From: Proales similis
Taxonomy: Eukaryota; Rotifera; Eurotatoria; Ploima; Proalidae
Direction: 5' to 3'
Length of the DNA stretch: 64,000 bases
NCBI GenBank assembly: GCA_019059635.1
Contig: JAGVRJ010000001.1
Coordinates: forward strand, 2,294,001 to 2,358,000
Shown here: in pieces, positions 18,303 to 54,400 of the stretch
Numbering within the stretch: position 1 is the stretch's first letter
Layout of the letters: each line of letters opens with the position of its first letter
Notes under the pieces: generated by a model
What the model saw: the letters and a program-made list of their open reading frames with translations, nothing else
What the model was told of the DNA's origin: nothing
Database searches by the model: none
Made by a program: the position numbers and the translations under genes

Positions 18303-19409
18303 ATGCTTGTGGAGGGCGGCGGAATAAGAAAGATCTTGTGCGACATTGAAGGTAAGACAAAACGTCAACGTTCCTCCCCTGGCTCCCAACGCAAAGGCTT
18401 AAGGCACGACAACTTCGATAAGTTTTGTCAAGGTTCGTTCTCCTCGACCTGTCTTGCCCAAGTTGCCTCTTTTAAATTGAATGCAACTCAAGGACGTTTT
18501 ATTTCCGCTGGCCAGACGCGATCTGGTCTCCTACTTGAACGAGTGTTTTGACTCCGAGCAATGCAGAGACGATCTACAACTTCTTGCTCGCCAAGTAAAC
18601 TCAGCCAAGCAATCAGACTTGCATTCGCTGTCTTCATTCAGACCTCTAGTCAAACGAAGATGCCCAGAACAGCTCCGAAATAAAAGAAATAAATCTGCAA
18701 CAGTCCAAGGAGACATTGATCAGCGACGTTGTGAAATACGTCGAGTGGCTCATGGACTCGGATCGCAAAGTGACCGCTCTGAAGCAGCTTCAAGGTCACA
18801 TTTGGCAGCGCGCCTATCTTAACGGACTCGTCAAAGGCCAGTAAGTTGTGGCCGCTCGATGAACTGATCAACCCTTGGACTAATCACGCGTCAAGTGTTT
18901 ACTCCGACGTCAAGCCCGCCTTCGAGCGATGGACTCGACAAGGCATCGAGCTGTTCATTTACTCGTCAGGATCGGTCGAAGCCCAGAAGCTACTGTTCGG
19001 CTACTCGGACGACGGTGACTTGCTCCAAGTCAGTCTCTACTCCTTGCCGTCATCAAAGCCTCTAACTTATCAGCTCTTAATGATCCCCACAACTAACTGA
19101 TCTGTTCTAGCTCATTTCGGGCCATTTTGACACCAAAATCGGAGGCAAACAACAAGTAGAAAGCTACAGTCGAATTCTAGAACACTTGAAATGTGCTCCC
19201 AGTCAAGTTCTTTTCCTCACCGATGTGCTTGGCGGTGAGTTCACTTGTCATGATTGAACCTGAGTCGTTTTCCACCTCTTTCTAACACAGAGGCCGAGGC
19301 CGCTGCCAAAGCAGGAATCAACGTCACAATCCTTTGCCGCCACGACAATCCCAACGCTCTGAAAGAAAGCGCTTTTAGCCTGGCCGCCAATTTTGACCAA
19401 ATAAACTGA
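18303..19409 (+). CDS. ENOPH1: Enolase-phosphatase E1 (methionine salvage)
   Basis: A HAD-superfamily enzyme that enolises and dephosphorylates 2,3-diketo-5-methylthiopentyl-1-phosphate in methionine salvage. Exon 1 (18303-18351) ends in DIEG. A tiny second exon (18404-18432) completes motif [15 protein letters not shown], carrying the catalytic aspartate. Later exons give [13 protein letters not shown], motif [15 protein letters not shown], the lysine region GHFDTKIG, and motif III/IV FLTDVLG with [17 protein letters not shown]. All HAD residues I can place are present. About seven exons are joined by short introns, including one ending TCTAG just before SNEDAQN. The stop is TGA at 19407-19409. 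Length is close to the roughly 260 residues of the human protein. Confidence 0.93.
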
Positions 19410-19925: not shown

Positions 19926-22900
19926 ATGTCTGCAGCTCGAATGAGAACTGTTTTCGATCCGGTTCATGGTCAGATCGAGATAGAAGATGAAATCTGGAAA
20001 GAAATAATTGATCAAGAAGATTTCCAGAGGCTTCGGGATCAAAAGCAGTTGGATCCATTGGAGTACGTGTTTCCGTCTGCTGGCTATTCGGTATTTGAGC
20101 ACGCGATCGGGTAAGACCTGTTCTGCTCAGACTCTCTCTATTTGTCTATTCCTATCGACTCATTTGAAGAGTTTGTCATTTGGCTGCAAAAATGGCTCAA
20201 AAGCTCCGTGAAAAACAAGGGGATAAAGTGAGTATTGATGATATCAAAAACGTCAAAAGGGCTGCTTTGCAATATATTCAATACGACTCGAAAATCTCGC
20301 GTTGGCTTAAACTCAAAAGGACTGCCAATTTGATGACAGATGAAGAAGCAGAAGATGAAGAAACAGAAGATGAAGAAACAGAAGATGAAGAAACAGAAGA
20401 TGAAGAAACAGAAGATGAAGAAGCAGAAGATGAAGAAGCAGAAGATGAAGAAGCAGAAGATGAAGAAGCAGAAGATGAAGAAGCAGCAAATGAAGAAGCA
20501 GATGAGAAAAACTTTAAAGATTCTGTTAAAACGGTGATCAATTTGGTCAAAGCTGTCAATGGTGACAATGATTCAGCAAAAAGCAAAAAGAAAATCCTCC
20601 GCCATCTCATGAGGAAACTTTTTGAAGAAATCAATGAACTTTATCCGAAACTAGCTGCTCTTCGTCTAGAAAAAAATGATGAGAATGATTTTACCAACAT
20701 AAAAGAAGAAAAGTCGAGTTGTTATTTGGCAGAGGTAAGACTCCAAGACTGAAGCTCAAACTTAGATAAAGAGATTAAAATTGATTTTGATTGTAAAGAT
20801 AATCAAGAACGAAAAGATGCGCGTGGACGCCACCCGGGTGGATTACCTCATGCGGGACTCGTTCTACTGCGGCAAGAAGCTCAACTTTGAATGGGACCGA
20901 TTCATCAACGACTGCCGAGTTGTTAAACACGATATTCAAGCGGAGATTGACGATGAGCTGAAAGCCATTTTCCCGAAATTATTTAGACAGCAGTATCAGT
21001 CCATTAGGGATTCTGGTTCTCAAATTTCTGCGAATAATAAGCACACTATTGAAAGACACAAAGAAAACAGTTACACTATTTACCTTAAAATATCAAATAT
21101 AACACCAGAACAAGCTTTGGAAAAATCCAAAAGTCAGTTCCAGAATATATCTGCGAGCAGCAATTACAAAGCTTTTCTTGATTATATAGACGAGATTTGC
21201 TCTGCAAATTACAAACTTCCTTCAAAGAAGAACACAGATGAATTAAAAATTTATTTAAAAAACAAAAAATATCTTAAACAGCCATGGAATCATCTTCCAA
21301 CTAATTTAAGCCGGAAATGCAGTCCCGAAGAACTCAAACAAAAGATAGAAGAAAAAATAACAGAAATCAAAAAAGAAATTAATAATTCTATTGATTATCC
21401 ACCAGCCATTAATTGTATAGGAATTTCCTCGGACGTAATTAAAAAACTGATTGATTAACGTTTTAACGCTTTTAATCCAAATTGTTAAGCCCAAGGCACT
21501 AAACAACCTGATGCAGTGCTTCGAGCAGCGCAGATACATGTGGAATCAAATCTACAAGCATCCGGCCGTCTCTTGTCTCGAATTTATGCAATGCCAAGGA
21601 AAAGACCTCTCTCGGCCAATTTACAAATGCTTGGGCAAGATCAATCTGATCGGAGTCCACCAAGGACGCCTTGGAAGCAAGACAATTCTTGAAGAAATTC
21701 TTAAAAAACAAATCGAAGAAACTCTCGGAAAAGATGCCAAATTTGCAGTAATTATCACTTTAATCAGTTGATCTAAACGATTGTCAAAATCAAGGCGAAA
21801 TGAACTTAGATTTTCGAAAAGCAGTTTGCTGAACTCGACCAAGTATTCTGTTATGGCGCAGACAATCAAGATAAAGGAAAACGATTGAGTCAAGCCAAAG
21901 CTTGGGTAGGTCCGCTTCTCGCCTCTTGCCTGATTCATCTCAGAACTTTGTTTGGTCAAGATTTCAATTTACGAACATTGGCGCTACAATGACGCCATTC
22001 TCTTCACTTGGTCTGAGAAGTCTGAGAATGAACTACAAGTTGGTGAAAGCCAGAAGAAAGATTGGAGGCTAAAAGTGACGGTAAATCTTTCAGCACTTGC
22101 CCTTTTTGATTCTATAAATCTCATTTCTGGCTCTAGTTTTTCAACATGCTTTTCCAAAAGATCTATATCAGTCCCCTGACTAGTATGAACATTTTAACGA
22201 AGAGTTTTCAAAGAGGCGATTGGAAAAGGGAGAATACTTGTGAAATTGATCATGGAAACCCTAATTATAAAAGAGAAACTCCAGCTCACTCCAGTTCTTT
22301 TTTCGATGATGTTAAAAATTATTGGATGGACAGAAAAAACCTTAATTTGGATGAAAAGAACCTTCCGAGCAGTTTGATCAATTTCGACATGAACACGACC
22401 GTGACCGAAGAGCACGACATTCAAGCTCTGTTTCAAATGCACGTCGTCTCCAACATGAATGAAATACTCAAGTTCTTGGGATCGCCCAATAGAGTCGGAA
22501 GATTTCAAGGAAACGATTTTCGAGAAGATAATTGGAAAAGGCCTGATTTCAACTGCATAGATGAAAACGATGACCACCTGATGGCCATAGAAATCAAACC
22601 ACCCAGTGATGCGACAACAATTAACAGCAGTGAACCGCTGAAAGGCGAGAAACAACTCGCGTGGTACATGGCCAGGATGAATAAAAAGTGGGGAGTGCTC
22701 TCGTGCCTCACCACCACCTGGTTCTATGAGATGGAAATCAAAAAAATCGGGAATCCATCTACGAGTACTGGTAGACCTTCATTTAAACTTGTTAATACAC
22801 TTAAGGCCGAATTGGATCTAAACGATCAAAATGACTCAAAAAAACCGAGCCTTTATGCTTGCCTTCTTTACGTTATTGAAAACCAACAGAGTATTTTTCA

Positions 22901-23441
22901 AGTTGATGACCCATGTTTCAATGAAAAACGGAATCTATTAGAGCATTTAACATCTGAGTATCTTTTACAAAAATTAAAACTTCAACTCCAGAGCGATCGA
23001 AATGGAGTTCTTAGTCGTCTCTTTTATGCCCAATCACGATATTTAAATCTGCGTCCAAATCAACACTACAATTGCTATGATTTATGCAGCTCTTTTATTG
23101 ATCAAATTTTAGAAGAAATCCAATGTAATAATTCGAACTCAAACATATACAACGACCTCAATTCATTGCTTTCGCGAATTAAACAATACTGTGATAATAT
23201 GAATAATTACGTTCCTAATTACCAATATGATTTAGATTTAGGTAGGGCAGTTGAATTTCTAGATAATATCAAGGCTCAGCTTACGGAAGATATCCTTAAA
23301 CGGCTACTTTCAGTTATACTCTTTATGCCCATGTTGAGATATGAGCAAGTTACCCAAAAAACTCTTGAGGGAGTTTCCAGTCTCCTAAGATGGCTCCCCG
23401 CACAAGTTCTTTCAGAGGCCGGCCTTTTAAAACCAAATTAG
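19926..23441 (+). CDS. SAMHD1-like pseudoenzyme fused to PD-(D/E)XK nuclease-like domain
   Basis: Seven exons: 19926-20110, 20170-20734, 20799-21434, 21490-21747, 21822-21905, 21961-22080 and 22137-23441. They keep one frame and give about 1,050 residues. The N-terminal part follows SAMHD1: TVFDPVHGQIEI, QRLRDQKQL, FEHAIGVCHLA, later RVDYLMRD and LNNLMQCFEQRRYMWNQIY. Against recalled human numbering, H167 is kept (FEHAIG), but the H206-D207 dyad aligns with Tyr-Ile (ALQYIQYD), D311 with Thr, and R164 with Val. Metal binding and dNTP hydrolysis are therefore very unlikely. A 15-bp acidic repeat and Lys/Glu-rich segments fill the space where SAMHD1 has its active-site lobe. The C-terminal exon carries RPDFNC, then AIEIKPP about 15 residues on, then GEKQLAWYMARM: the Asp, Glu-x-Lys and Gln pattern of PD-(D/E)XK nucleases. 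The role is unknown; a nucleic-acid defence role is only inferred. Confidence 0.75.
20339..20505 (+). repeat. 15-bp tandem repeat coding an acidic tract
   Basis: About eleven head-to-tail copies of a GATGAAGAA(A/G)CAGAA unit. They code DEE(T/A)E repeats, first with Thr then with Ala variants, ending in a degenerate NEEADEK. It lies inside exon 2 of the SAMHD1-like gene, just after the degenerate active-site segment. Copy number is probably unstable. Confidence 0.93.
22543..22760 (+). other. PD-(D/E)XK-like core of the fusion protein
   Basis: It codes PD at about residues 752-753, E-I-K at 768-770, a Gln at 789 in a predicted helix (KQLAWYMARM), and a hydrophobic strand (WGVLSCLTTTWFYE) like the strand after the catalytic helix in restriction-nuclease folds. 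All catalytic-type residues are present, unlike in the HD part of the same protein. Confidence 0.6.
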
Positions 23442-24563: not shown

Positions 24564-27265
24564 ATGAGAGAAAAAGTAATTTTTAGTGTTCTACTGGGCT
24601 TAGTGGCTCTGGGTTACCAGTCAACACTTGTGGCGTCTCAGTGCGCCGAAACACTCGCCTGTCAGCACTACGGCGTGTTCAACCAGGCCACGTGTAAATG
24701 CGAATGCTTCAAGGGCTACTCCGGTAAGCGGCCTCTCCCTTTCCCCAAACGGCCTCTTCCTAACAATCGAGCTTAGGAAAGTATTGTGAACTTAACTACT
24801 GCCAGGAGCAGTCAGAGCAGTGCGGAGTGGACTACAGTCCGTTTCAGTGCGGATCTGTGGCGCTCATCGCTGCGTATTGTCCCATTATGTGCAACTCGAC
24901 CATTTGCAAATGCGGATTCAACACCTGCCTTAACAACGGCGTGTTTGATGCCAACACCTGCTCGTGCAGCTGTCCAGCGCCTTATGCGGGCAAAATCTGC
25001 GAGCAGCTGAACACGTGCGCAAACACGCTGAGCTGTCAGAACAGCGGCAATTTCAACACCAAAACCTGCTCGTGTGAATGCTTTCCGGGCTACACAGGCA
25101 CCAGCTGCCAGAACCTGAACTGTGCGGTCAGCGATCCGGCTGATTGTGGAAACTACGATCTGAACGACTGTTCCGTTCGCCTGATTAAAGACTACTGTCC
25201 CAATCTGTGCGGTAAGTTTGTTGCTCAATTGTTGACTTCTGGACTTGAGTCTTGGAATGAACTGAAATGCTCGTGTCAGGAAAGTGCAATGGTCAAGCGA
25301 CTGGATGCACTCCGCTCTCATGTCAGAATGGAGGAGGTTTCAACCCGAACACATGCTCTTGCGAATGCTACCCGAGCTACACTGGAGCTCTTTGCCAGAA
25401 CCTCGACTGCTCCAGGCCAGATCCCAGCTCTTGCGCTAGCTTCTCAAGCACTCATTGCTCAATTGCTGAAGTTTTCAACTACTGCCCAGTCTTGTGTCAA
25501 AAATGCTCGGCAACGAGTGCTCCTCAGACCACTCAGCAGCCCGACACTACCCAGCAGACTGATAGCACTCAGCAGACAGATTCGACCCAACAGACAGACA
25601 GCACCCAGCAGACTGACACAACACAGCAGACAGACACGACCCAGCAGACTGATAGCACTCAGCAGACAGATTCGACCCAGCAGACTGATTCTACTCAGCA
25701 GACTGACACAACACAGCAGACAGACACGACCCAGCCACCTGCCACTACCGGCTGCCAGGAAATCGCCTGCTCTTACGGAATCATTTTTGACCCAGAGACA
25801 TGTACCGGTCTAGACCTAATTGTTCAGATCGCATCCTAACTCGCTTATCTTTTAGGTCAATGCGCCTGTCCGCCTGGATTCTCAGGACCGACTTGTGCCA
25901 ACTACGACTGCGATTCTCCAGAAGATGATGCGTCCATTTGTTTCATTTTTGGCTGCGTTGACAGCATCATTTGTCCCAAGGCCTGCTTCTGTGATCCATT
26001 TGCGACACCAACCACGGCGAGTGCCGAAACGACCGCCTGCCAAGAGATCACTTGCAGCTACGGAATCACCTTCGATCCGGCCACTTGTAAGTTTGAGCTT
26101 AGTTTACTAATTATCTCACCGGTTTAAATGTGGCTTTGAAGGCCGATGCAACTGTCCTCCTGGCTTCTCCGGACCGACTTGCGCCAACTTCGACTGTAAC
26201 TCAGCTGCCACCGACGCATCAATCTGCGCTTCGTTAGGCTGCGTTGACAATATTCTGTGCCCCAAAGCCTGCTTCTGCTCTTCGACCAGTGCACCCGCAA
26301 CCACTGCGGCTGACACTACTTTGCCCGAGACCACTGCATGCATTACTCTAACTTGCCTGAACGGCGGAGTGTTCGATGTCGATCAATGCAAGTGCGTTTG
26401 TAGGTGGCCATCACTCTTCCTCTCACTCTCAATCGACCTCAACAGAATTCAAAGGCAACTTTAACTATTACGGAGACCTATGTGAAAACAGAGCTTGCAT
26501 ATCTGATCAAGCTGGCTGCGAGACCTTGACTCAAGCCGACTGTGCTCAGTAATCGAAATCACTCGCCACAGACTGAGAATCTTTTCAGACTTTTTGGTCC
26601 AAAATAAATTAGGGAAGGCGTCCCGGACATTTGCCCATTCTTCTGCGGTCTCTGTCCCGAGACCACCGTTGCACCGGCAACAGACGCTCAGACAACCCAA
26701 GCACCTGTTGACACGACAAGCGGTCAAGTCTGCGTGGAGATCGCCTGCAGCTACGGAGTCACCTTCGATCCGGCCACTTGTAAATCGCCGATTTTCGCTG
26801 ACCAAACAAAAGAAAAGAAATTCTGAGATCTTCACTAGGTCAATGCAACTGCCCACCCGGCTTCTCTGGACCCACGTGCGCTGATTTCGACTGCAACTCT
26901 GCGGTGACTGACGCTTCCATCTGCGCCTCACTCGGCTGCGTCGACAACCTCCTCTGCCCCAAAACTTGCTTCTGTCAATCGGGCTTGCCCGAGACCACTC
27001 AAGCAGGCGGAGTCTGCGTGGAGATCGCCTGCAGCAACGGAGTCACCTTCGATCCGGCCACTTGTAAATCGCCGATTTTCGCTGACCAAACAAAAGAAAA
27101 GAAATTCTGAGATCTTCACTAGGTCAATGCAACTGCCCACCCGGCTTCTCTGGACCCACGTGCGCCGATTTTGACTGCAACTCTGCGGTGACTGACGCTT
27201 CCATCTGCGCCTCGCTCGGCTGCGTCGACAACCTCCTCTGCCCCAAAACTTGCTTCAATTGCTGA
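24564..27265 (+). CDS. Secreted multi-domain EGF/ShK-type cysteine-rich protein
   Basis: A signal peptide (MREKVIFSVLLGLVALGYQS) is followed by repeated units. Each has an EGF-like piece (for example CSCECFPGYTGTSCQ) and a six-cysteine ShK/SXC-like piece (DPADCGNYDLNDC ... DYCPNLCGKC). A Thr/Gln/Asp linker repeat (about 25541-25735) is likely O-glycosylated. After it come four related modules with the pattern (Y/N)GxxFDPxTC, CPPGFSGPTCA, DASIC and GCVDN(I/L)LCPK(A/T)CFC. Module introns fall at the same place, splitting a Cys codon (T|GC or T|GT) after FDPAT. One degenerate module (GGVFDVDQCKC, NYYGDLCEN) lies near 26360-26550. The last two modules are a recent 284-bp duplication. The protein ends CPKTCFNC with stop TGA at 27263-27265. 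Roles in innate immunity, mucus or egg coats are possible but not shown. Confidence 0.78.
25541..25735 (+). repeat. 18-bp minisatellite coding TQQTD(S/T) repeats
   Basis: About eleven copies of an 18-bp unit coding Thr-Gln-Gln-Thr-Asp-(Ser/Thr). A higher-order block (Ser, Ser, Ser, Thr, Thr variants) occurs twice in the same order, which suggests block duplication. It forms the flexible linker of the EGF/ShK protein. Confidence 0.92.
26731..27259 (+). repeat. 284-bp tandem duplication spanning an exon-intron-exon module
   Basis: Copy 1 starts at 26731 and copy 2 at 27015 (period 284 bp). Over about 245 bp they differ at only a handful of positions, and the intron is identical. Each copy codes one VEIACSxGVTFDPATC / QCNCPPGFSGPTCADFDC module. 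The near identity of intron and synonymous sites shows a recent event. Confidence 0.95.
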
Positions 27266-39400: not shown

Positions 39401-42400
39401 ATGTCCGGCAGAGTGGAGAGCGGACCATACTCTCTGTTGCCGCTGCCACATGTTCCATTCCAGAGCAAAGTGAACGCGCCCAAGAATCCCAAGTTGATCA
39501 GAAATGTCAAGGGCCAGCAGCGGGTAATTAGGCATCGACGCAGACTCGACGCACTCTGAGCCTAACTCGGCCTCTAGATCAAACCGTCAGAGTATTTGAC
39601 TCAAATGTCCATGGACACAAAACAGCGACTGGCAAACACGCATGAAATGTACTTGCCGAAAATAATCGAGCTGTTGGACATGGGCGAGACGAGTCTACAA
39701 AAAGTGAGCTGCCATTCGCACGTCTAAGCAGGCGAAGAAGTTTATGACTTGAACGTAAAATAGAGCACACAGCTAGAAGTCGACGAGCCAATGTTTCAGC
39801 CTTTTCCTTCTGAGATCTTCTTCCAGAAGTTCGAACCGTTCAACATGTACGAGATTCCGTTGCTGTTGCGCAACAACGATAAGGTAGGCGCTCAACTTGG
39901 CCGCTGCCGGCGCCAGAACAGTTCATGAACTCGGTCCAGGTACCAAGATTGGTCAAAGTCACCCAAGTGGACACGCCCTATTTCAAAATAGTCCCATCGG
40001 CCGACGCACATCAGAAGGTCGGTCCTGGCCTCCCAGTCATCTATCGCATTCAATTCATACCCGAAGAGAATAAAGTAAGAGCCTGAGCCGCTTGAGCTCG
40101 CCTGTCCTTCTAATCGATCGCTCTGTACAGGACTACAACCACGAGCTGATCATAACCACCGAACGCGAGAAGTATATTGTGCCGATTAAGTGCATTGGAG
40201 CGCGGGCAATTCTCGACCTGCCCGATCAGATCAGTTTCTCGAGCTGTCCAGTAAAGCACTTGTCGCAGAAGGTGCTGTTTGTGCGCAACATCGGCGACCG
40301 AGATGCGAAATTTTCGCTCAACGTCTCAAAGTAAGCGTCTGATTCCCCAATCGCTCGACGGCTAGACTCGGGAGTAAAATGAATTTGCGTCAAGGCCGTT
40401 CACGGTGATGCCGGATCACGGCGTGCTCAACATGGGCGAGAGTATGCAATTGACCATTGAATTCAAGCCGAGCAAATGCGGCGAGTACGAACAGGACTTG
40501 ACGCTGGGCTACGACACGGGCGAGCGAATTCACGTGTCGCTGTACGGCGCAGCTGCCGATTCAAATGTGCTCCTTGAGAAGAGCAGCGTCGAAATCGAGT
40601 CGACATTCATCACTATGAGCAACCACCGAACCGTCAGACTGGTGAACAAAAGCGACGTGATTGTGAAATTTGACTGGAAAAGATTCGCGACGGCGGAAGA
40701 GGAGCAGCAGCAAATGCTGCGCGAGATTGGCTCGCTAAACCGCGACGAACTGAACGCCAAGAGCAAACTGACCAATCAAGACGAAGACTATTTGGCCCTG
40801 TTGTCCAGAAATTTCACAAACAAAGTCAAATCGACCGAGTGCAAGACCTACGAGTTTGAGGATCCGGTCTTTTCGATTGAACCGCGCACGGGCGAGGTGT
40901 GGCCAAACTCATCGCTCGACTTCACCGTCACATTCAAGCCCGATCTGGCCCAGACATATTCGCGCACCGCCTTTTGCGAAGTGACCGGTCGTGAGTCTAG
41001 ACTGCCTCTCTCGCTGACTGGTGTCGGCTGTGGGCCTCGTGTTCAGCTGTCGATTGAAGATTTCGACGTCGGCAGTGTCTTCATTGGTTCCACTCACGTG
41101 TACGAGGTAAGCCAGTTTCTCATTTCCCTCTGGTGCCAGATCGAGTCTTCAATGACCATTTGTCCCCCTCCACTTAAGGTCATTCTAGCCAACAAGGGCT
41201 TCATAGATGCTATATATAGCATATCGACGCCGTCGACCAGTTTCGGCAAATGTTTCAGCTTTGAGCCTAACGAAGGGCTCATTTCGCCCAATGGCTATCA
41301 GGCAATAAACGTCGCCTTTTCGAGCGATCGACTCGGCCATTTCGAAGAAAAGTTCGAGTTTAACATCGACGGAAAACCGGACAAGCATATTCTCACAATA
41401 AGGTGAGTTGTCAGTTTGACGGCGATTCGAACAGAGCAAAATCAAAAGAATAAATTTGAACAGGGGCCAAGTGATCGCGCCGACCTTCAAATTCAGTGTG
41501 AGCAAAATCCGCTTTGGTCAAGTCTCGTACGGGTTCAAGCACACGCAGCAAATTCAGCTCAAGAACACATCACTGGTGCCTATGAACTACTCGCTTCGGG
41601 TCGCGTCCGATCCGTTTCTGGAAGAGATGCTGCTCGCCAGCTCGAGGGACGGCAGCATTTCGAGTTTATTGAAACCAGAGTTCTCCATCACGCCGAGCAG
41701 TGGCTTCATCGCGCCGCAGAGCGAGATCAAGCTCACAATCGATTTTGTGCCCAGGAAAATACAGGCCTACACAACTGCGCTTGTTGTCGACTTGGACGAC
41801 GTGGCCACCGACCTTTTCCAGCTTCCAATCACAGCACACTCGAGCGTACCTCCGATCAGCATTTTAGACGACACGGTTCAGATGGGACGTTGTTTCATCA
41901 ACTATCCCTACGAGTATAAAGTGCGTCTCTCGAACGAGTCCCAACTGAGGGCGCATTACTCAGTGGCCGCATCCAGAGATGATGAGCTGTTCAAATTCAC
42001 GGGCGCGCCGTTTCAGGGAAGCGTTGAGCCCAACAGCGTCAAAGAGGTCACTGTGATGGTCGAGGTCCTTCAAGTCGGCGAACTTGAAGGTCTACTCGAA
42101 ATAATCATCGACGGCGCTTCTTATGGACCACTAGGCTGCAATTTCGTATGCCTTAGCCAAGGACCTGTCGTTCAAATATCGCCCAAAATAATCGACTGGG
42201 GCTTGACTTCTCTGCTGCAGAAGAGCATCAGAGAGATAACCATTTCAAACGAGTCTCTGATCGAAGCTCGCTTCAGCTCTTATCCGGTAAGGCCCAACAC
42301 GGTTGAATTGATTTAACTTGACAGCGTTAACTTGCCATGTTTTAAGAGCCGCAAGAACTCGCCCTGGTTTGTCGAGCCAAACAACGGAAAAGTAGCGCCT

Positions 42401-45400
42401 GGCCAAGAAGTCACAGTGAACGTGAGCTGCTTTCTGATCGACAAAGCGAGGTAGGCAGTTTTCAAAGCAATAGGTCCTGTGCCCAATCTTTGAGCTGGAA
42501 ATTCGAAATTTAAAAGATTCGACGACATAATCAACATTGAGATTGATCACTCGCACACACACAAGATTGTGGTTAGAGCTCAGGGAAGCGGGTGCTCGAT
42601 CGTATCTGATCCGGCTATTGGCTCACTGGTCGACTTTGGAACTCAGTTTAGCGGAGCAGTGGTCAAGCGAACAATCATGCTGACGAACAAGAGCACAAGA
42701 CAACAGAGCCTGAGCTTCTTTCCAGAAGGCGTCAGCTCTACAAGGCCCACCAAGAAGGAGCTTGTCCAGGAAAAGAACAAACAGGGCGCGCTCGCTTCGG
42801 CTGCCAATACCACTTTTAAAATTGTGCCCAATAGAGTGGAGTTGTACGCCAATCAGAGCAAAGAAATTGTGATCGAGGGCTACGGATCCAAGCCGCATTT
42901 AATCGAGGAAGCGTTCAATTGCTTTTCGATTATTGGCAAAACGAGCGGAAAAGACCGAATAATGAACTTTAAGGTCAAATGTGAGTTTGTCGCGCCTGTC
43001 ATCTCATTCTCAACCAAATCGCTTCGCTTCAGAGCCGAACAAGTAAGTAGAGGCTGTTTTTCGTTTCTCTTGATTCCTTTAAAATGCTTCCATGTACAAT
43101 AGACGGCCGGCAGCCAACTGAGCAAGCCCTCGCCTCAAGAGATTTTCATTTCCAACATTTCTTCGCTTGACATCACCGCTCAGCTAAAATGTCAGAGCCC
43201 GTTCGTATTCGTTCAAAATGACCAGCAAGTTACTCGCGAGCTCGTGCTCAAACTCGCCCGAAGCGAGTCTGAGTCTATTAGGGTTCTGTTCGACACTTCA
43301 TTCAAAGTCGATTTGCACAACGAGACAATCAACGCTCGCATGCAAATATTCTACGAAGAGCATCAGCAACAGGTAGATGAGCCGCGCTTCTCTCTGGTGT
43401 CTCTCACCTCTAACTTGGTTTGACCAAGGACGAAATCGAGCTTCTGGGCGAAATTTACTTTCCCAATCTGCACATCTCAGCGGACACGGTCGATTTCGGT
43501 TGCATCCTGAACGAGACCGAGTGCGTGGAAAAAGTCAAGTTGACCAACGTTAGTCCGATACCGGTCAAGTACCGTTGGTTTTTTGCGATCAACAGCGAGA
43601 CTGTGAAGCGAATCGCCCGATCTGCTTACTTAAAGCCGGAGCTGAGCGACTCGAGCAAGCAGTCGATCCAGGACACATTGTCAAGCGACGAGAACTACGA
43701 TTCAGACAAAGAGCTGCCCAGGATCGAGGAAGTGTTCGACATGGCGCCCATATTCGGCATCATTCAGCCTGGCGATAGCCAAGAGCTCTCGGTTACTTTT
43801 TTCGGCCACAAGGAGATTATGGCCGAAGCGCAGGCGGTCTGCGAAGTCGAAAACGGTCCCCAGTACGCGCTGCAGATCAGAGGACAAGCGTCAGAGCTCA
43901 ACTACGAGCTGAGCGAGAGAGTGATTGATCTCGGCCATGTTGTAAGTTGCAGTTGCGCTCTACCGATCAGTTCAGTCATTTTGGAGCTAATTTCTGCTTC
44001 GAAAGCCATTTGACGAAGAGAGTGAGGCGTTCGTGAGCATTCGCAACACGGGCAAGGTCGATCTGGTTTACAACATGACTAGCAGTGACCAGCCGTCGTC
44101 CGAAGTCGAGCAAATGCAATCAGTCCCGTCTCAGGTATTTAAATGTCCTTGAAATACCCAATTCAGCCAAATTGAACCGATTGGCAACAGGGCGTGGTCG
44201 AGTCGGACAAGATCGTCACAATTGTGATCAAATACACACCAGGCGTGCCGGGCCAGTTTAAAAAGAAGCTTCGACTGCAAATATCGCACTTTGCTCCCGA
44301 GGAGGTGATCATCACTGGACACGCGTCTTTTGTCCACTTGATGTTCGATTTACCGCGGTTCGAGGATGTCGACTATCGGAAAATACGTCAAGTAAGAGAA
44401 GTCAATATTCAAATTGATTAGCTTTGCAGCAGCTAACTCTCTGTTTTATCTAGACTGCGTGTGCTAATCTGAAGCAAATCGAGCCGAGTCCGTCTGAGTC
44501 CGTTGATGCAAACGTATGTCGTTTGACACAAGATAGCGATTGGCTTGCGCCCGTCTTAACCGTCGTCATTTAGGAATTTCCGAACGAGCAGCAAATTCAA
44601 ATCGAATTGGACCGAGTCAAAGTGGACCAGTTTGTGAGAGAGAATCAGACGGTCAACAGCGAGCAAGAGACGAACAAAGAAATTCAGCCGACCGCCGGAG
44701 AGAGTGTGAGAACTTCGGCTGATCACAGTTCGACTACTTCAAGCAGCCGCCGCAAGCCGCGTGCTCGACTACTCGAGTACGAGCTAGACTTTGGCCACGT
44801 CATTCTCGGCACGGTCAAGACTCATGTGGTGCAAGTGTCGAATGTTGGCCGACTGCTGGCCAGCTTTGATGTTGAGCGTCAGAATTTCTCCAAGACCGGC
44901 TTTCTTGTCGACTTGGAGAAAGTCAAGAACCTGCCTTGTGACCAGTCGATTCAGTTCGTGGTCACATTTGATCCCAGAGGAGCCAATCTGAGCCTTGGAC
45001 CAGTCGAGCACAAAATTCCGTTCAAAGTGAGTCAGTCGTGCTTGCTTCCGGCGTTCGCCTTTTTTATTCGGCTTCGTCAAAGGTACATGGCGGACCTTTG
45101 CTGAGCATCAAAGTTAAAGCAAACGTCACCATGCCCGACCTGCAGATATCGAGCGACTTTGTCGAGTTCGGCGAGGTTGTTTGCGGCGAGTGCAAAATAG
45201 TCACCGTTCAGCTCTACAACCACAAGGAAGTGAGATGCGACTGGGCGGCGGCCTACGTGCCGCAAAAAGAGGACAAGTTCACGCCAATGCATCTGAAGAG
45301 GAGGAAAAAGCAAGAAAGCGAGCAGAAGCCGAGACTGTTCGAGATCATGCCGCCGACCGGCAGTCTGTTGCCGTTTCAAAGGACAAACATTCAAATCAAG

Positions 45401-48400
45401 TTCATGCCCAACGAGGAGGTTAGCAGCTAGTTCGCTCTTGTCGATTTTGCACTGATTCTGAAAGATGCGCTCTAGAAATTGTTTGAAGAGAGAGTGATAA
45501 TCCGCATGTCGCAGAGCAGCCAGCGTCTGATGATTCTATGCAAAGGCCACGGCCTCGAGCCTCGCGTCGAATTCTCCAAGAACTCGATTGAATTCGAGCC
45601 CATTTTGCCGCACAGTGTCGGCGACGAGCAGGAGGTCAAAATCACTAATCCGTGCCCTTATCCGGTCGAGATCTACAATCTCGAATTCGACAAGGAGTAT
45701 CTCGAAGAAGAGAAAATCCTGCGCGTCATCAAAGGCTACGACGAGCTCAATACTCTGCTGCTTCCACCGCGCAAGCCGGGCGAAAAGCTTCCCAACGAGC
45801 TCTATCAGTATTTTGACGGTAAATCACCTGACCGATGCCGTTGCGATCAGCTCATTGGTACTCGATCTCTTTTAGACCAGCTGAAGAAACTTGAAGAAGA
45901 GGAGAAGCGGCAGAAACAGGCACTCAGCTCAGAGGCGGGTACCAGTCTGAACGACGATTTGTGTAAGCGTCTCGTCAAAGTGCTTATTGCGCTGAGCGAA
46001 ACGAATCATAACCAATTTGAAATGAATTTAGCCACAATCAAAGCGGAAGAGTCGAACGGAACTCAGGGAGGCGAGCGTCCCTCGGATTTGCCAACGAGTC
46101 AAAAGAGCGCATCAGGCGAAGAAGTAAAGAAGGGAAGCGCGTCAGGAGTCGGAGAGCTGGAGAAGAACCCGGTATTTGACTCGATTGCTCGCTACCTGGG
46201 CATTGACCTGTCGGCCGAGGGACAAGCGGCGCGCAATCGAAGAGGAATCGCGATCATTGTAAACGGGTCACCTCTGAGTGGCAAGAGCCAAGCGTCAGTA
46301 GCCCTAGCCAAACACTACGAATGCGCTCTGCTGACCATTGACGGCATAATCACCGAAGCAATTGCGACCGGCACCTCATCGGCTGCTGCCAAGGCCCGTC
46401 AGTTGTGCGCAGAGCAGGCGAGCAAAGTAGCCGAAGAAGCCAAGCTTTTAGAACAGTCCAAGCCGAGCGCAAATGCGGCCGGGCTCAGTATGGAAGCGCT
46501 TGCCCAGCATTCGATCAATCGTGAGTAAAATGTTGACTCAACTCATCTGAGCCTCTTTCTAGCTAATAATCTTCAAAAGACGGAGCTTTGGGTGGACAAG
46601 CCGGCAGCAAGAGGACTTCTGTGGCTGGCGACTCGCACACAAATTTAAAAGGAGGCGGCAAGAAGAAGAACGAAAGCTCCAACCAAGAGCAGAACTCGGC
46701 CCAGCCGTCCTCGCCACAGCCGTTGTCGGGTCCAATTGCGAGGAAATTGAGCATTGGCTCAAACTTTTTCAGTCAAGAGGACGGCTACATGAGCACAGTG
46801 CTGCCCGAGGACGTAATTGTCGATCTTCTCAACGAGCGCTTTCAATTGTCCGACTGCCATCGAGGAATTGTGATCGACGGCCTTGAGACTCTGTTTGCTC
46901 AGAACTACTTGCTGGCCGCTTCGTCCGTTTTGAAGGCGTTTAACAACCGCCGCTTCATCTACTGTGTCACGCTCAAGTCCGACTACGTCAAGTACAAGGA
47001 GCGAATAAATCGCATCAACGAAGAAAAGCGTAAGCCAATCACAGCATCAGTTTTTCATCCAAAATCTCATTTATTTTGCTTTTTAAAGAAATGGAACTGA
47101 AACGGCAACTGATCGAAGAGCAGCAACAAATTGAAGAAATGGACGAAGAAGAGTATAATCGGCTGACACCGAACAGAGCGCGCAAAGTAGACGCTCACTT
47201 GCTTGAATTGAAGAAGCAGCGATTCGAACGTATCGAGGCCGAGCGCCGAGAGAAAGAGAGGGAACGTTTGGAGAAGCAGGAAGAACTCGAGCAGCAAGCC
47301 AAACTAGAAGAGGAAAAGAAAAAGAAGAAGAAAGGCCCCGGAGACAAGAAAACGCTGACGTCGTCCACGCCGGCCGCTGGACAGAATGGCAAGCCTGCTG
47401 GCGGCAAAGAGAGCAGAGCAAATGGTGGAGCGTCGCAGCAGACAGGCGCCGTTTCTGATCGGCCCGGCACCAATCTAGGCTCTGAAGACACAGAAAAAGT
47501 GAAAAAGCACGTGAACAAATCACAGCCGCCTACGATCGGTGAAGAGATGACTGTGATTGAGGAGGAAGAGGTCAAGGAGAAAAGCATCGATCCAGAGGAA
47601 GAGAAACGAATCGAGGCCGAGCGTCTCTTGCAGCAGCGATTTAAAACCTACGACGCATTCTATCGGGACATAATCAGTCTCATGGAGGCGTGGGATCGTA
47701 GCCAATGCAACATTTACCGGCATCACTCTCCTTCGGACAAGTCGGAGCTCGACGAGCAGTCTTTGGGCAATCGAAAGAAGAAAGACCTGAAGAGTAAGCG
47801 ATCCATTGCCTTAGTCCGCCAATTAAGCAATCCGTCTGACGCGAATTCGTTTCAGAGGAGAAAAAAGAAAGAGCTGAGGGGGAGGTCAAGTCGAGTAAAA
47901 TCGACTCGGCCGCTGATCTTTCCGAAAAGGTAGCTTTTTATCTTTTAAAAGATTCAATACTTTTTCCTTTAAAAGCTGTTTCTTCAGCCCGAAGAAGAGT
48001 CGAGCTCAGCGCAGACCGAAGAGAAAAAGCCCGACTTGATGAAAGAGGACGGCATCGGTGTTCCCAACTTGATAATCGAAAACGTCTACGCCTTTAATCT
48101 GAGCGAAATACACAAGCACGAGAAGCTGCCGTCTGTGAACGAGGTGTTGGACGGAATGGGAGTTGGGCCACGTGGACCTCCAATTCCGCCTCCGGCCTCA
48201 TTCAGCGTCATTCCCTATCCTGTGCACAGAGTGGCCCCGCCCGGAGCCGAATACAGCAACTACGAGTTTGTGACCAACGATGAAAACGATCCGTAAATGA
48301 CCAGTTTTCCTCACTTCCTTTATCTGCCTATTGGCTAATGTTTCATTTACTCTTCGTAAAGGAACTTGCAAGCCGGCGAGAAGACAACCAAAGAGCTCTC

Positions 48401-51400
48401 GCCGATTCTAGACCTGAGTGGAGTGGAAGGCGAGAAGACGCCCGAGAATGTCAACTCGTCCAAAGGTGCCCGGAATTCCCGTTCGACCAAAACGAGTAAG
48501 TCATTGAGCCGAGAGAGGGAAAGCCAGTGTTTTATTAACGAGTATCTAAAGACAATTCAGCGCGAGTGGAGCCACGCTCCGAGACAAGCGGCGGAAGACG
48601 AACAAGCGGTGGAGCTGGAGGCGACAAGCGGCGCCCAGAATCAAGGAGCAAACGTGAATCGCTTCCCTCGCCGAGCAATCGAGCCGGCTCAAGTGGCCTG
48701 AGCGAGAAAAAGTCCGAGACTGAGAACGCAGACGGCCGGGCTTCTGTAGACGGTGGCAGCAGTCTGGACAAGCGAGGTCTCAAGCTGCGCCGGTTCCGAT
48801 GGGTCATCCCTGCCCACGGAGAGGTCAATCTTCGCATAAGGTTCTCGTCTGAAGAGTCGGGACAGTTCGATCAGACGCTTAATTTCGAAATACTTGGCAC
48901 TCGTCGACGTTATCAACTGCATTGCCGAGGCGTTTGCACGTTTCCAAGCATCAGTCGAGAGCCCAGGTGACTTGATAGCCAACTCCTCTAGCCGAACGAG
49001 TTAAACAATTATGTGAAGGAATGTGTTCGCGTCGAGAGTACGGAGCAAGGAGGCTAACGAAATAGTGAAAAAGAAATTCATTTTGGACGACGACCTATTT
49101 GATTTTGGCCCATTGCTGGTCGGCCTGAATCAAGAACGGTGCAGAGAGGGGCAGTTTCCGGACTACTACGAAGAGTTCAAAATAGTGAATGTTTCGCCGA
49201 TGAACGCCGAAGTTAACTTTTGCTTTGCCGAAGAAGGCAACGAAAAAGTCGACTGCTTCTACTTGGAGCCCAACGAGCTCAGTCTACGACCAAATGAAAC
49301 GAAGGTAAGTTTTTTGTGATGGATCTCGGTTCGGCCAGTTTGCTCTAATCGATCGCGCAAGACTCTGAAAGTATACGCCGTGCCCAAAGAGAGCCGCGAG
49401 TACAGCGAGACGCTCATATGCTGCATAAAAGACAATCCGGAGCCGATCACATTCAAACTGAGATGCTACGGGCAAAAGCCAGAGCTCGAGCTCGACCGCA
49501 AAGAGTTCAGCTTCAAGCAAGTTCTCTTGCACAGGTTCGTTCTTGTCTTCTTCTCTTGCCACAGTTTCAAGCAAAGCAAACTGACTAAAATTAAATATTT
49601 AAAGAAAAGAGAGCAGCGAGATACTCGTCTCCAACAAGACAATGATTCCCGTTCAGTGGAAACTTGACGGCCTTGATGCGCTCGGCGAAGAGTTCTTGTG
49701 CAATCAGAGCTCGGGCATAATAGAGCCGTTGTCGTCGTTCAAGCTTTTGCTTCACTTTCGTCCTCTCAAGCCGATGACCATCACTGCAAAAGACAAGAAA
49801 AACTTAAAGCTCCTTGTCTCGTCCGTGGACAGCTTCCTGGGCTTCATCGAGAACCACACAATCTTGCTCACAGCCGAGGCGTATGACGTCGCGCTAGAAA
49901 TCAATCTGCCGAAAGGAAACGACGGCGGTGTCGACTTTGGCTGCGTGAGAGTGAACAACGAGACCAAGCTGAACTGCACTCTAAAGAACAAAGGCAAATA
50001 TCCGATCAAATTCAGGCAAGTCCAATGAGGTCGGTCAGCGAGTTGCATTTCTAATATTTCTCTCAGATTCCTCACCGAGTCGTACAGCGCCGAAACACAG
50101 GAGCTGCTCAAATATCTTGTCATATCGCCAGTGAACGGAGACTTGGCCGGCACGTCAGACCGCAACTCACAGGCCGTACCAGTCACTGTAAGTAGAATGT
50201 CTCACTCTCCTGCGCCCCTGAAGAGACAATAAAAATTGGCCAATTAAGCTGAGCTTGTGTCCAAAGCGTGAGATTCACGTAAAAGATGCCACCGTAATCA
50301 AATGCCAAATTGTGGAGCCGTCCGTCTCAGACCAGGGCATCATAATCGCAAACATTCCGATCAAACTCTCGGCCAAGGCTCTCCTTAGCAAGTAAGCAGC
50401 AACACTGCTTTCACTGTCTTTTCGTCTTTGCTTCATTCAAATTGGAATTTATTCGCCAGATTCAACATTGTGCCCAACAGAGAGATAAACTTCGGCGCCA
50501 TTGCACTCAACTCAAAGCGAATGGAGAAGATGATTATTGAGAACAAGGGCGAGTTTGAATTCAAGTTCTCGATCGTAAAAAATTCATCTGAATCATCGAA
50601 CAAGTCGCCGTCAAAGTAAGTGAAACGAACAACAAACTCGGCTAATCGATCGTCAGTCGCATGTCCTTCATAATCACATTCTTTGCTTTTTAATATTCCC
50701 ACTCTGCATGCGAGCGACTAAACTGTTTTATTTCTGTTTGGCTTTGCAAGTCAAAACACCAAAGTCGCCAGCAATACCCTCGGTGGCACTACAAGCCGAA
50801 TGAGCTTGGCCAAAGTGAGAAGCAGTGCCGTGAGCCGGAATAAGTCCAGCTCGCGTCGCAGCTCACAAAGGTAGACCCAACTCGACGCCTAGCCTGACCC
50901 GGTCCCTTCCATCTCTTTAACTTGCCTCTGTGTTTGTCTCTCTTTCTCTCTCTTTCTCCTTGTATCGGTGTGAAGCCTTAGTCTGTGACCATTTTCAATC
51001 TCTATATCGGAGACCATTCCTCCGATCTCGCTGTCTCTATCCATTCTCCTTTACCAGCTCATTCTATTGCCGTTTAGCTCCTGTCTGGCTTTTGACTTGC
51101 CTCTAATCGATTCGCTTATCAAGGGAGGTGTTCATTAATCCTGGCCGTTTCCAGACCGGCGTGTTCACTGTCACTCCGGCCTATGGCATTCCGATGGAAA
51201 ATGGCCATCAGGTCGTGCAGATCGAATGTGCTGCTGACACGCCGGGCGTCTTCACTGAGGACATTTGCATCGACATCACTGACAGAGACCTGAGCGTTTA
51301 TCCCAACGGAATACCCTACAGACTTCGCGCCGAGGTCGTCGCTCCTCACCTGCAATTTTCAAACGAAATATTCGAGGAGCACACAATCATATCCAGCTCG

Positions 51401-54400
51401 CGGCAGTTTGAGTCCAAACTCGTAAGCTCGCTCAAGCTCTTGCTCCAGTCTTCAAAAGTGAGCAATTTTTCACGTTTTCAGATGGGCCTCGGAGTCTACG
51501 CCGAACTGGACAAAAAGTTCTTTTTCAACAACGTGATTGTGGGACGATGTGCCAAGGCCCGTTTCAAGATGATCAACACAAACAAGGTGAGTTGTGCTCA
51601 ACTGCCGCTAGTTGTCGACAATGCCTCAACTGCCCAACGTCGTTCAGATTCCGATCGATCTATCGCTGAGTCTCAAAGTGAGCAGTTCGAAAGGCGGTCG
51701 GACGCCGGCCGACGGTGCGTTTGAACTCGAGCCGAATCGAATTCACTTGGAGGCGCATTCGAACGCTTTTGCTACCGTCAGCTTCAAGCCGACCGCAATG
51801 GTTGCGTACAATGCTCAATTTGAGGCGGCCCTGGACACGACCGCTTCATCGGCGGCCAGCCAGCAGAGAAGTCAGACGATCAGCTTTGACATCAGCGGAG
51901 AAGGCAATCTGCCTCGATTCTCCATATTGAAGCCGTCGGTCCGGAATCAGCGCGGTCAGGCGCTCATGCTCTTCAAACGGTGCGTGATCAATCAGCAGGA
52001 CGTCCAGCCGCTGGTCTTGCTCAACAACGGCACTTTGCCGGCCAAGGTCAATCTAAGCCTGCAAGACCCGGACAATGCGTTTAGAATCGTTGCCGAGTCG
52101 AGCGTAAGATCGAGCTTCGTTATGAGCAAGAGTCAATCGGCGAGCGTCAGCTCAATTGTGCTCGAACCCGACTCGCAAGCTTCGCTTCGGGTCATTTGCT
52201 CACCGAGCAGCGTGCAGCCATATCAGGGCTCGATCGAGTTGACTGTGGTCGACAATGAATTTGAGAACACGATAGTTCAGCTGATTGGCGAAGGCTACAG
52301 CCAGGACGTGCTGCTGGAAAACTTGCACTCGGTCGATCGGTCGAGCTTGCTGAGTCAGAATACAATCGAAGACTTGCTTGCCGACGAGGAGATTTGTGCG
52401 CTGAAGAACAATGAAATCGACTTTGGCGATTTGTTTTTGAACGACAAAAAGCAGCTGCTGTTGAGTCTGAGGAACCAGAGCAGTTCGAACTGCTACAGAT
52501 TCGAGTGGCCCGCTGAAAACTCGCCCGTCTGCTTTTCACCTCGAGTGGGCCATCTGCATGCAAACTGCACCAAAGACGTTACAGTTACATTTCAGTCGGC
52601 TGAGTCGATCACGCTGTTCAAGAAAGCGTTCAAGTGCGAGCTGAACAAAATCACTTTTGAGCAGCCGATTAACGAAGTAAAAGACTGGGACGACAGAATG
52701 ATGAGCGTCAAGTGGGTGAATGAACTGGTGTCCGCAGGCGAGGAACAAAACACGACCATAAACGAAGAGAGTTCGATGAATCAGTTCAGCGCGCGTCCTG
52801 ACGCGGAGAAGAAAATCATTCGTCGCAAAGTAGTCGAAAGCGAGCCAGAGCCGGCGTTCAGCAAACAAGAAGAAGACCCGAGCGAGCTCGCCTTGCTGGT
52901 TAGCGCTGTCTGTGACCAATGCAAGAGCAAATGTTCAGAGACCAGCGTCAGGTTCAAGGACACGCTCATGCTCCAGACCCGAGTCTACGAGTAAGCTTCG
53001 GATACCAGTCTAATCTGCACCGACTCTTGATCACTAATTTTGTCGATTAGAATCGAGCTCATCAACAAGGGCCGAGTTGGCTTCGACTACAGATGGAACG
53101 TGTCAATGGAGGATCCGCGCGTGCCGTTCAAAGATCTCGTCGAACTGGCTGCCGACAGTCCAGACAGAATGGACTCACCACCTCCAGCGCAAGTGAATGC
53201 TAAAGGACCTCGAGCTGCGGGCGACAACAGCGGCTCGTCGCCAACGCGTCGATCGAACAAAGAAGGGAGAAAAGAAGCCGGCAATTCCAAAACGAATGTG
53301 GTTGCCAACAAGAGAAGCAGCCGCGAGAGCTCAGAGGACGCTGCTAGCAAAGCCAACAATCGATCAAACAAGACAACCACCAAACGAGGAGAAAGAGACA
53401 AGTCGGCTCGTTCGCTCGAGTCCGAAGCCGAAGTGAAGAAGAGCGACGCCTTTTTAGGAGATACCAACACAGGAGAAAACTCACGCCCACAGTCGAGAGC
53501 CGATCAGGTTCGTGCTCAGTCCTCTTTGAGCCAATACGCGCCGAGTACGATCGCCGAAACCGGCTACCTGCCATTCAGCATGAATCCTTCATTCGGACGA
53601 CTAGAGGCCGGAAAGGGTGTCAAGGTCCAAGTGAAATTCTCGCCACTCGACCTGAACGAGTATCAGGCCAGAGTGCAGTGTCTTATTGAAGGACAGAGCT
53701 CGGACGAGATTGAGAACCCTGGGCCGACAATTGTGGTCAGAGGCAAAGGCCTGCTGCCGTACTGTCATTTTGACCTTGAGGAATCAGATTACATCAGCTC
53801 GGGACGTCGACAGCCACCTCTACTTGCCGGTCTTGGTCTAGATCCCAACACGCGGGTTATTGAGTTCTCGTCCATTGGACATGCAAGTCGAGTTGTCAAG
53901 CGCTTTGAAGTCATTAACCCGACCAACATCGACTACGACTACGAATGGGTGAGAGAGAGAGCGGACGCGATCGAGGCGCAAAGTGAAAGTCTATTCGAGT
54001 GCCGCACGCCACGAGGAATGATCTTGTGCGGACGCAAAACTGAGATGAGCTTCGAGTTCGAGCCAAAGCAAACAGCAGGCACATACGAAAGTAGTTGGCG
54101 CTTCAATTTGCCAAAATTCAACATCAGCCTTCCGTTCTTGCTGGTGGGACACGTGAACGAGCCCAAAGTGAGGTTTGAGCGCTCGCACATCTTCTTCAGG
54201 CCATTGCTGGTTGGCTACACGGCACACGAGGCGATCAAGCTGATAAACGAGGAGTCGATTCCGGTCCAGTTTGAGTTTGAGCAAAGCTCGTGCTACACAG
54301 AAGCCAGAGCTGCTGTCCTTACACCGGAGCCGTACAGCGGCACTCTGGCACCAAACTCGTCGACCGAGATTCGACTCGGATTCCAAGCTCGCGACTGCCG

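Follow-up and report, generated by a model that had tools for sequence, protein, structure and literature searches.

A family of SAMHD1 paralogs with a destroyed HD site and a nuclease-like tail in the rotifer Proales similis

In a 64,000-nucleotide stretch of the genome of the rotifer Proales similis (contig C1, positions 2294001 to 2358000; here called the window), we analyzed a gene at positions 19926 to 23441 that encodes a SAMHD1-like protein with a destroyed HD site and a C-terminal tail resembling PD-(D/E)XK nucleases. Its seven exons join into a single frame of 1,052 amino acids across six GT-AG introns of 55 to 64 nucleotides (nt), as had been proposed in an earlier note made from the letters of the window. 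The genome searched for relatives comprises 32.7 Mb in 15 contigs, and loci are named below by contig number. The parts of the gene are the following, with counterparts in SAMHD1 given by their human residue numbers.

19926..20110, + strand: exon 1, opening portion of the SAMHD1-like HD core (VFDPVHGQIE..FQRLR..VFEHAIG)
20170..20734, + strand: exon 2, ALQYIQYD as pseudo-HD motif (ALCHDLGH in the C2 copy), then an acidic repeat
20338..20502, + strand: 15-nt tandem repeat in 11 copies within exon 2, encoding an acidic EDEEA/EDEET run
20799..21434, + strand: exon 3, SAMHD1-like IIKNEKMRVDATRVDYLMRDSFYCGKKLNFEWDRF (T262 at the place of D311; equivalent of R333 kept), then a poorly conserved insertion
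21496..21747, + strand: exon 4, ALNNLMQCFEQRRYMWNQIYKHP (equivalent of H376 kept), with exon 4 of C5a and exon 5 of C10a as homologs
21810..21905, + strand: exon 5, relatives detected within the family only
21961..22080, + strand: exon 6, relatives detected within the family only, with a phase-0 donor 56-57 nt 5' of the last exon
22137..23441, + strand: exon 7 (including the stop codon), an orphan C-terminal domain, conserved among paralogs over about the first 255 of 434 amino acids
22542..22547, + strand: P754-D755, candidate PD-(D/E)XK motif II, opening the second strand in two low-confidence models
22590..22598, + strand: E770-I771-K772, candidate motif III, right behind the third strand in the two low-confidence models
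22653..22667, + strand: Q791-x3-Y795, candidate motif IV, in the helix following the third strand in the two low-confidence models

The 11-copy repeat at 20338 to 20502 stands in frame just after the dead HD motif, and its other frames are also open on both strands.

When the first 618 amino acids of the window protein were compared with PDB chains by phmmer, the best SAMHD1 chain was matched at 2e-19 in two stretches, and the C5a paralog reached 2e-25, again in two stretches; both proteins have significant sequence similarity to the SAMHD1 core. The best match of the window protein overall was 9mr6, an HD domain-containing protein (9.6e-22; residues 6-136 and 244-316). Neither the window protein nor the C5a protein has an HD or SAM match in Pfam, and the window protein further departs from SAMHD1 in its large insertions and its extra C-terminal domain. 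In the alignments, H206-D207 are replaced by Y97-I98, D311 by T262, and R164 by V56, whereas H167 is retained as H59, as are equivalents of D137, Q142, and R145 (D29, Q34, and R37), R333, and H376. Only H167 is left of the metal site formed by H167, H206, D207, and D311, so that the window protein does not have the site of an active deoxynucleoside triphosphate (dNTP) hydrolase; as judged from the sequence, the HD site is confirmed to be dead. The SAMHD1-type N terminus claimed in the earlier note, and the list of changed and kept residues that it gave, were borne out in these alignments. The residues of the HD site and of the A1 pocket are named in PMC7045340 and PMC7854603.

The gene, which the earlier note described singly, does not stand alone but by sequence is a member of a multigene family that exists beside a SAMHD1 with an intact motif. 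Exon 7 was found in at least four places of the genome and SAMHD1-like loci in at least seven, these numbers being lower bounds taken from the best-scoring candidates. The loci comprise at least six with a pseudo-HD motif (the window gene on C1, C5a, C5b, C8, C10a, and C10b) and one SAMHD1 with an intact HD motif on C2. None of the six pseudo-HD loci keeps H206 or D207, and none of the five having the respective exon keeps D311. The pair H206-D207 is replaced by YI in the window, FV in C10a and C8, SQ in C5a and C5b, and KF in C10b, and D311 is replaced by T in the window, C5a, and C5b, by S in C10a, and by L in C10b (residues of C8 and C10b were read by eye). H167 is retained in five of the six, and D137/Q142/R145 in four (window, C5a, C5b, and C10b). 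Two further copies are intact, C5a with 913 amino acids in 6 exons and C10a with 1,238 amino acids in 8 exons, including one GC-AG intron. This intron precedes the last exon; its donor, GCAAGT, occupies the last splice site, which is conserved. C5b lies about 21 kb from C5a, forming a tandem pair, and C10b lies near C10a; for neither was a last-exon match found in at least 5 kb downstream. The last exon of C8 contains a change of frame, and the searches gave no match to exon 3 at this locus.

The SAMHD1 gene on C2 (C2:1637196 onward) belongs to the same family and shares the SAMHD1-like exon 1, but in contrast to the window copy it has both CHDLGHGPFSHMF and GIDVDK (D311), and the genome searches with exon 7 gave no match at its locus. 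A six-frame Pfam HD search of the genome returned only C2 and C6, the latter being a different HD protein, and left the other SAMHD1-like loci undetected. A tree of eight rows separated five pseudo-HD copies from the other three rows, which are the C2 copy and two outside proteins, with support of 98/98; C8 was omitted, one of the outside rows is a long branch, and the order of branching among the five is not fixed by this tree. When the SAMHD1-like part of C5a was used as a query, two proteins were obtained among 3,918 candidates, both with a Pfam HD domain and neither with an architecture of dead SAMHD1 plus tail, judged by the Pfam list. The G+C content (GC) in the 10 kb surrounding the C2 SAMHD1 is 36%, while two distant samples of C2 have 45% and two nearer ones 32% and 38% (zone within C2:1600001-1668000). 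We tentatively read this as an AT-rich zone (GC of 32 to 38%) of one contig around the intact-motif SAMHD1, and not as a foreign C2 contig. The length of C2 is exactly 3,500,000 nt.

The N terminus, the middle exons, and the last-exon domain follow each other in identical order in the three intact copies, which are on different contigs (C1, C5, and C10). This supports the fusion into a single gene, a claim of the earlier note, and makes chance adjacency of two genes unlikely. A wrong joining of two neighboring genes, or of an operon, at 22080/22137 would fit the ATG at codon 4 of the last exon, found in all three intact copies; but the F/N residues upstream of that ATG are conserved as well, and three diverged copies on different contigs repeat the exon order and have their phase-0 donor 56-57 nt 5' of the last exon, so this explanation is extremely improbable. 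Exons 4 to 6 are 27 to 35% identical between copies. Differences at the three codon positions in these exons number 68, 59, and 94 for window/C10a, 76, 53, and 94 for window/C5a, and 91, 69, and 97 for C10a/C5a, an excess at third positions that is slight for the last pair. The corresponding numbers in the last exon are 92, 76, and 154 (window/C10a), 94, 75, and 128 (window/C5a), and 119, 92, and 153 (C10a/C5a).

Nonsynonymous (dN) and synonymous (dS) divergence was estimated for C5a/C5b in segments picked because they were alignable, and with small counts; for pairs of older copies, synonymous change has reached or come close to saturation. The exon 1 and exon 3 segments together (95 codons) give a dN of 0.031 and a dS of 0.286, a dN/dS of about 0.11, and the values for all four segments used (187 codons) are 0.088 and 0.279. 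Taken alone, the exon 2 segment, which carries the dead motif, has a dN of 0.174 and a dS of 0.211, indicating little constraint. From this contrast, the scaffold segments of exons 1 and 3 are under purifying selection and the old active-site region is much less constrained, which agrees, for this one pair, with the kept scaffold suggested before. As C5b is apparently truncated, part of the selection signal may be older or come from C5a alone.

These data also bear on the possibility that the copies are decaying duplicates, i.e., SAMHD1 genes drifting into functionless pseudogenes. The defects of C8, C5b, and C10b described above would fit decay, as would the weak constraint on the exon 2 segment and the base composition. 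The coding sequence of the window gene is AT-rich, with a GC of 0.383 and a third-position GC (GC3) of 0.38 (C5a 0.415; C10a 0.478), while GC3 in three open reading frames used for comparison, the only ones taken, is 0.747, 0.738, and 0.654. The low GC3 may reflect weak expression or an unusual history. Long intact frames of 1,052, 1,238, and 913 amino acids with usable splice sites, the third-position excess between old copies, and the dN/dS of 0.11 in two exon segments of the recent pair argue against decay, which we regard as very unlikely. We consider the following anatomy highly probable: SAMHD1 paralogs, dead at the HD site and carrying a nuclease-like tail, that form a lineage-specific family.

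What the dead scaffold may still do is suggested by SAMHD1 itself. The H206R/D207N mutant is inactive and was yet crystallized with dNTPs (PMC7045340). According to PMC7854603, D137, Q142, R145, and R451 form a guanine pocket that accepts guanosine triphosphate (GTP) or the G of an oligonucleotide, and H376 touches the oligonucleotide backbone. It is therefore reasonable to propose for the window protein, on its residues, that hydrolysis is lost and binding retained. Several results weigh against this proposal. A profile built from exons 4 to the beginning of 7 hit none of the PDB chains at E 10, and profile comparison with the C-lobe of SAMHD1, represented by just two sequences, was negative as well. 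It is thus not established that the SAMHD1 core, with R451, survives in full. The R451 region could not be aligned to the window family. Because exon 1 is conserved throughout, the retention of the A1 residues is unspecific, and the equivalents of D137/Q142/R145 are lost in C10a and C8. The idea that exon 7 starts with the end of the SAMHD1 C-lobe was likewise left unsupported by these two negative profile comparisons.

The tail is conserved over about the first 255 of the 434 residues of exon 7, with 51% identity to C10a and 40 to 44% to C5a. PD and EI are invariant in the three intact copies, and the window and C5a, which both carry the PD and (D/E)xK signature, also share EIK and QxxxY. QxxxY is a feature of RecB-like PD-(D/E)XK members. 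Of the nuclease-like residues said earlier to have all remained, those of the window and C5a do, but C10a lacks the Lys and Gln. Two single-sequence AlphaFold models of the window tail, the second with motif positions mapped by hand, both give helix, three strands, and helix, with PD opening strand two, EIK following strand three, and Q in the next helix, so that the first five of the six core elements of the PD-(D/E)XK fold appear in order. The order PD, EIK, QxxxY together with this weak alpha-beta-beta-beta-alpha prediction fits the superfamily as described in PMC1913061, which also states that new families are usually missed by standard sequence searches.

There is evidence against assigning the tail to this superfamily. 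Both models are poor (predicted local distance difference test scores of 34.4 and 39.9), and both have a helix at the sixth element, the expected fourth and last core strand. In C10a, which of all copies is nearest to the window in exon 7, IEIT stands for EIK and HxxxY for QxxxY. Some PD-(D/E)XK families have a motif III Lys replaced by Thr, with basic residues in motif IV (PMC1913061), and C10a has an Arg close to the motif IV position, so that the C10a tail need not be inactive. A coupling of the loss of the A1 triad to that of the tail Lys and Gln in C10a was considered and dropped, being one copy against two. No relative of the tail was found in Pfam, PHROGs, PADLOC, PDB sequences, viral contigs (185 pattern matches), prokaryote genomes (116 pattern matches), or a set of 5.8 billion proteins, and the tail is therefore an orphan here. 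The searches of the last set, which require shared 5-residue words and similar protein length, gave 611 candidates for window residues 610-880 and 1,867 for the three-copy alignment, none at E 1. Matches to Peptidase_M64 (0.033), Cas6 (0.011), and four PHROGs (0.069 to 0.3) were each obtained with one of three members and below threshold, and were set aside as chance. Thus, one outcome that the earlier note had named as refuting its reading, the absence of a restriction-fold match for the tail, did occur with Pfam, PHROGs, PADLOC, and PDB sequences; of its PD-(D/E)XK-like tail, the motif and a weakly predicted order of strands and helices stand, and homology and a trustworthy fold do not.

The bare pattern PD..[DE]xK arose in 3,827 of 20,000 shuffles of the window exon 7 (19%) and in 4,518 of 20,000 of that of C5a (23%). 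This, with the negative searches and the low-confidence models, is what would be expected if the tail were a conserved domain of an unrelated fold that resembles the motif by chance. However, the extended pattern with hydrophobic flanks and QxxxY was found in only 120 (window) and 110 (C5a) of 20,000 shuffles, and both models put the three motifs at their proper elements; an unrelated fold is, in our view, unlikely but a serious alternative. The recurrence of the motif in C5a, a copy with 40 to 44% identity over exon 7, is stronger evidence than its rarity in shuffles. We lean slightly toward a PD-(D/E)XK fold for the tail, and judging from motif and models, a nuclease is plausible though unproven.

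As the best explanation, held tentatively and at less than even odds, we propose that the window gene is a catalytically dead SAMHD1 paralog that gained a PD-(D/E)XK-type tail, in a small and fast-evolving family of at least six loci. Its scaffold would no longer hydrolyze dNTPs but might still bind a guanine nucleotide or nucleic acid through the A1 pocket, with equivalents of D137, Q142, R145, and H376 kept, and might oligomerize. Binding or assembly could then position or activate the tail, which would cleave nucleic acid, most likely of viral or retroelement origin. In its full form, as a ligand-gated nuclease in which the dead scaffold senses its ligand by the allosteric pocket and, once assembled, switches on a fused restriction-type nuclease, in a family of fast turnover, this mechanism seems rather unlikely to us. 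The broader picture would be that of an ancient antiviral enzyme recast as a sensor that strikes by other means. The duplication, truncation, decay, and fast middle regions of the family fit conflict with parasites or mobile elements, and also fit relaxed constraint; a role in defense remains an inference, as the earlier note had called it.

Alternatively, the dead proteins may be pseudoenzyme regulators that form mixed oligomers with the intact-motif SAMHD1 or compete for its ligands, the tail serving in docking or targeting. The presence of the intact-motif SAMHD1 in the same genome agrees with such a role, as do the constrained scaffold segments, the missing nuclease profile match, and the intact C10a without the tail Lys and Gln. 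The recurrence of PD, EIK, and QxxxY in two intact copies as diverged as the window and C5a speaks against it, and mixed assembly is made doubtful by exons 4 to 6, which have diverged to the extent given above and whose profile matched no SAMHD1 chain, even though the C5a SAMHD1 match reaches, at its end, into the start of C5a exon 4. A regulator of this kind is an unlikely but serious candidate.

SAMHD1 restricts retroviruses, and mutations have been described that remove this activity yet spare dNTP depletion (PMC7854603), which raises the question of how much hydrolysis and how much nucleic acid binding contributes. A family that dropped hydrolysis, kept the scaffold under selection, and added a domain offers a natural experiment to address this. 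Should the tail prove to be a nuclease, the domain architecture would be new, and if the gene encodes a ligand-gated nuclease, it would be a new type of intracellular defense effector in animals. Among the papers listed in searches of mostly open-access literature, none dealt with such a SAMHD1-nuclease fusion, judged by titles and abstract beginnings.

A Zic-type zinc finger, a p300/CBP-like protein, an LGR-like receptor, and EGF proteins, recognized by eye among the open reading frames, agree with an animal genome. Other features of the window lie on both sides of the gene. Its upstream neighbor (18650-19409) resembles, by eye, enolase-phosphatase E1. Downstream, an 18/90-bp repeat at 25534-25735 encodes TQQTD, and at 26727-27256 a 284-bp unit is present in nearly two copies with a 98% match in the region of an EGF-type gene, perhaps by recent exon duplication. 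At 40378-56754, a long run of open reading frames resembles, by eye, a HYDIN-type ciliary protein, which would suggest motile cilia or flagella.
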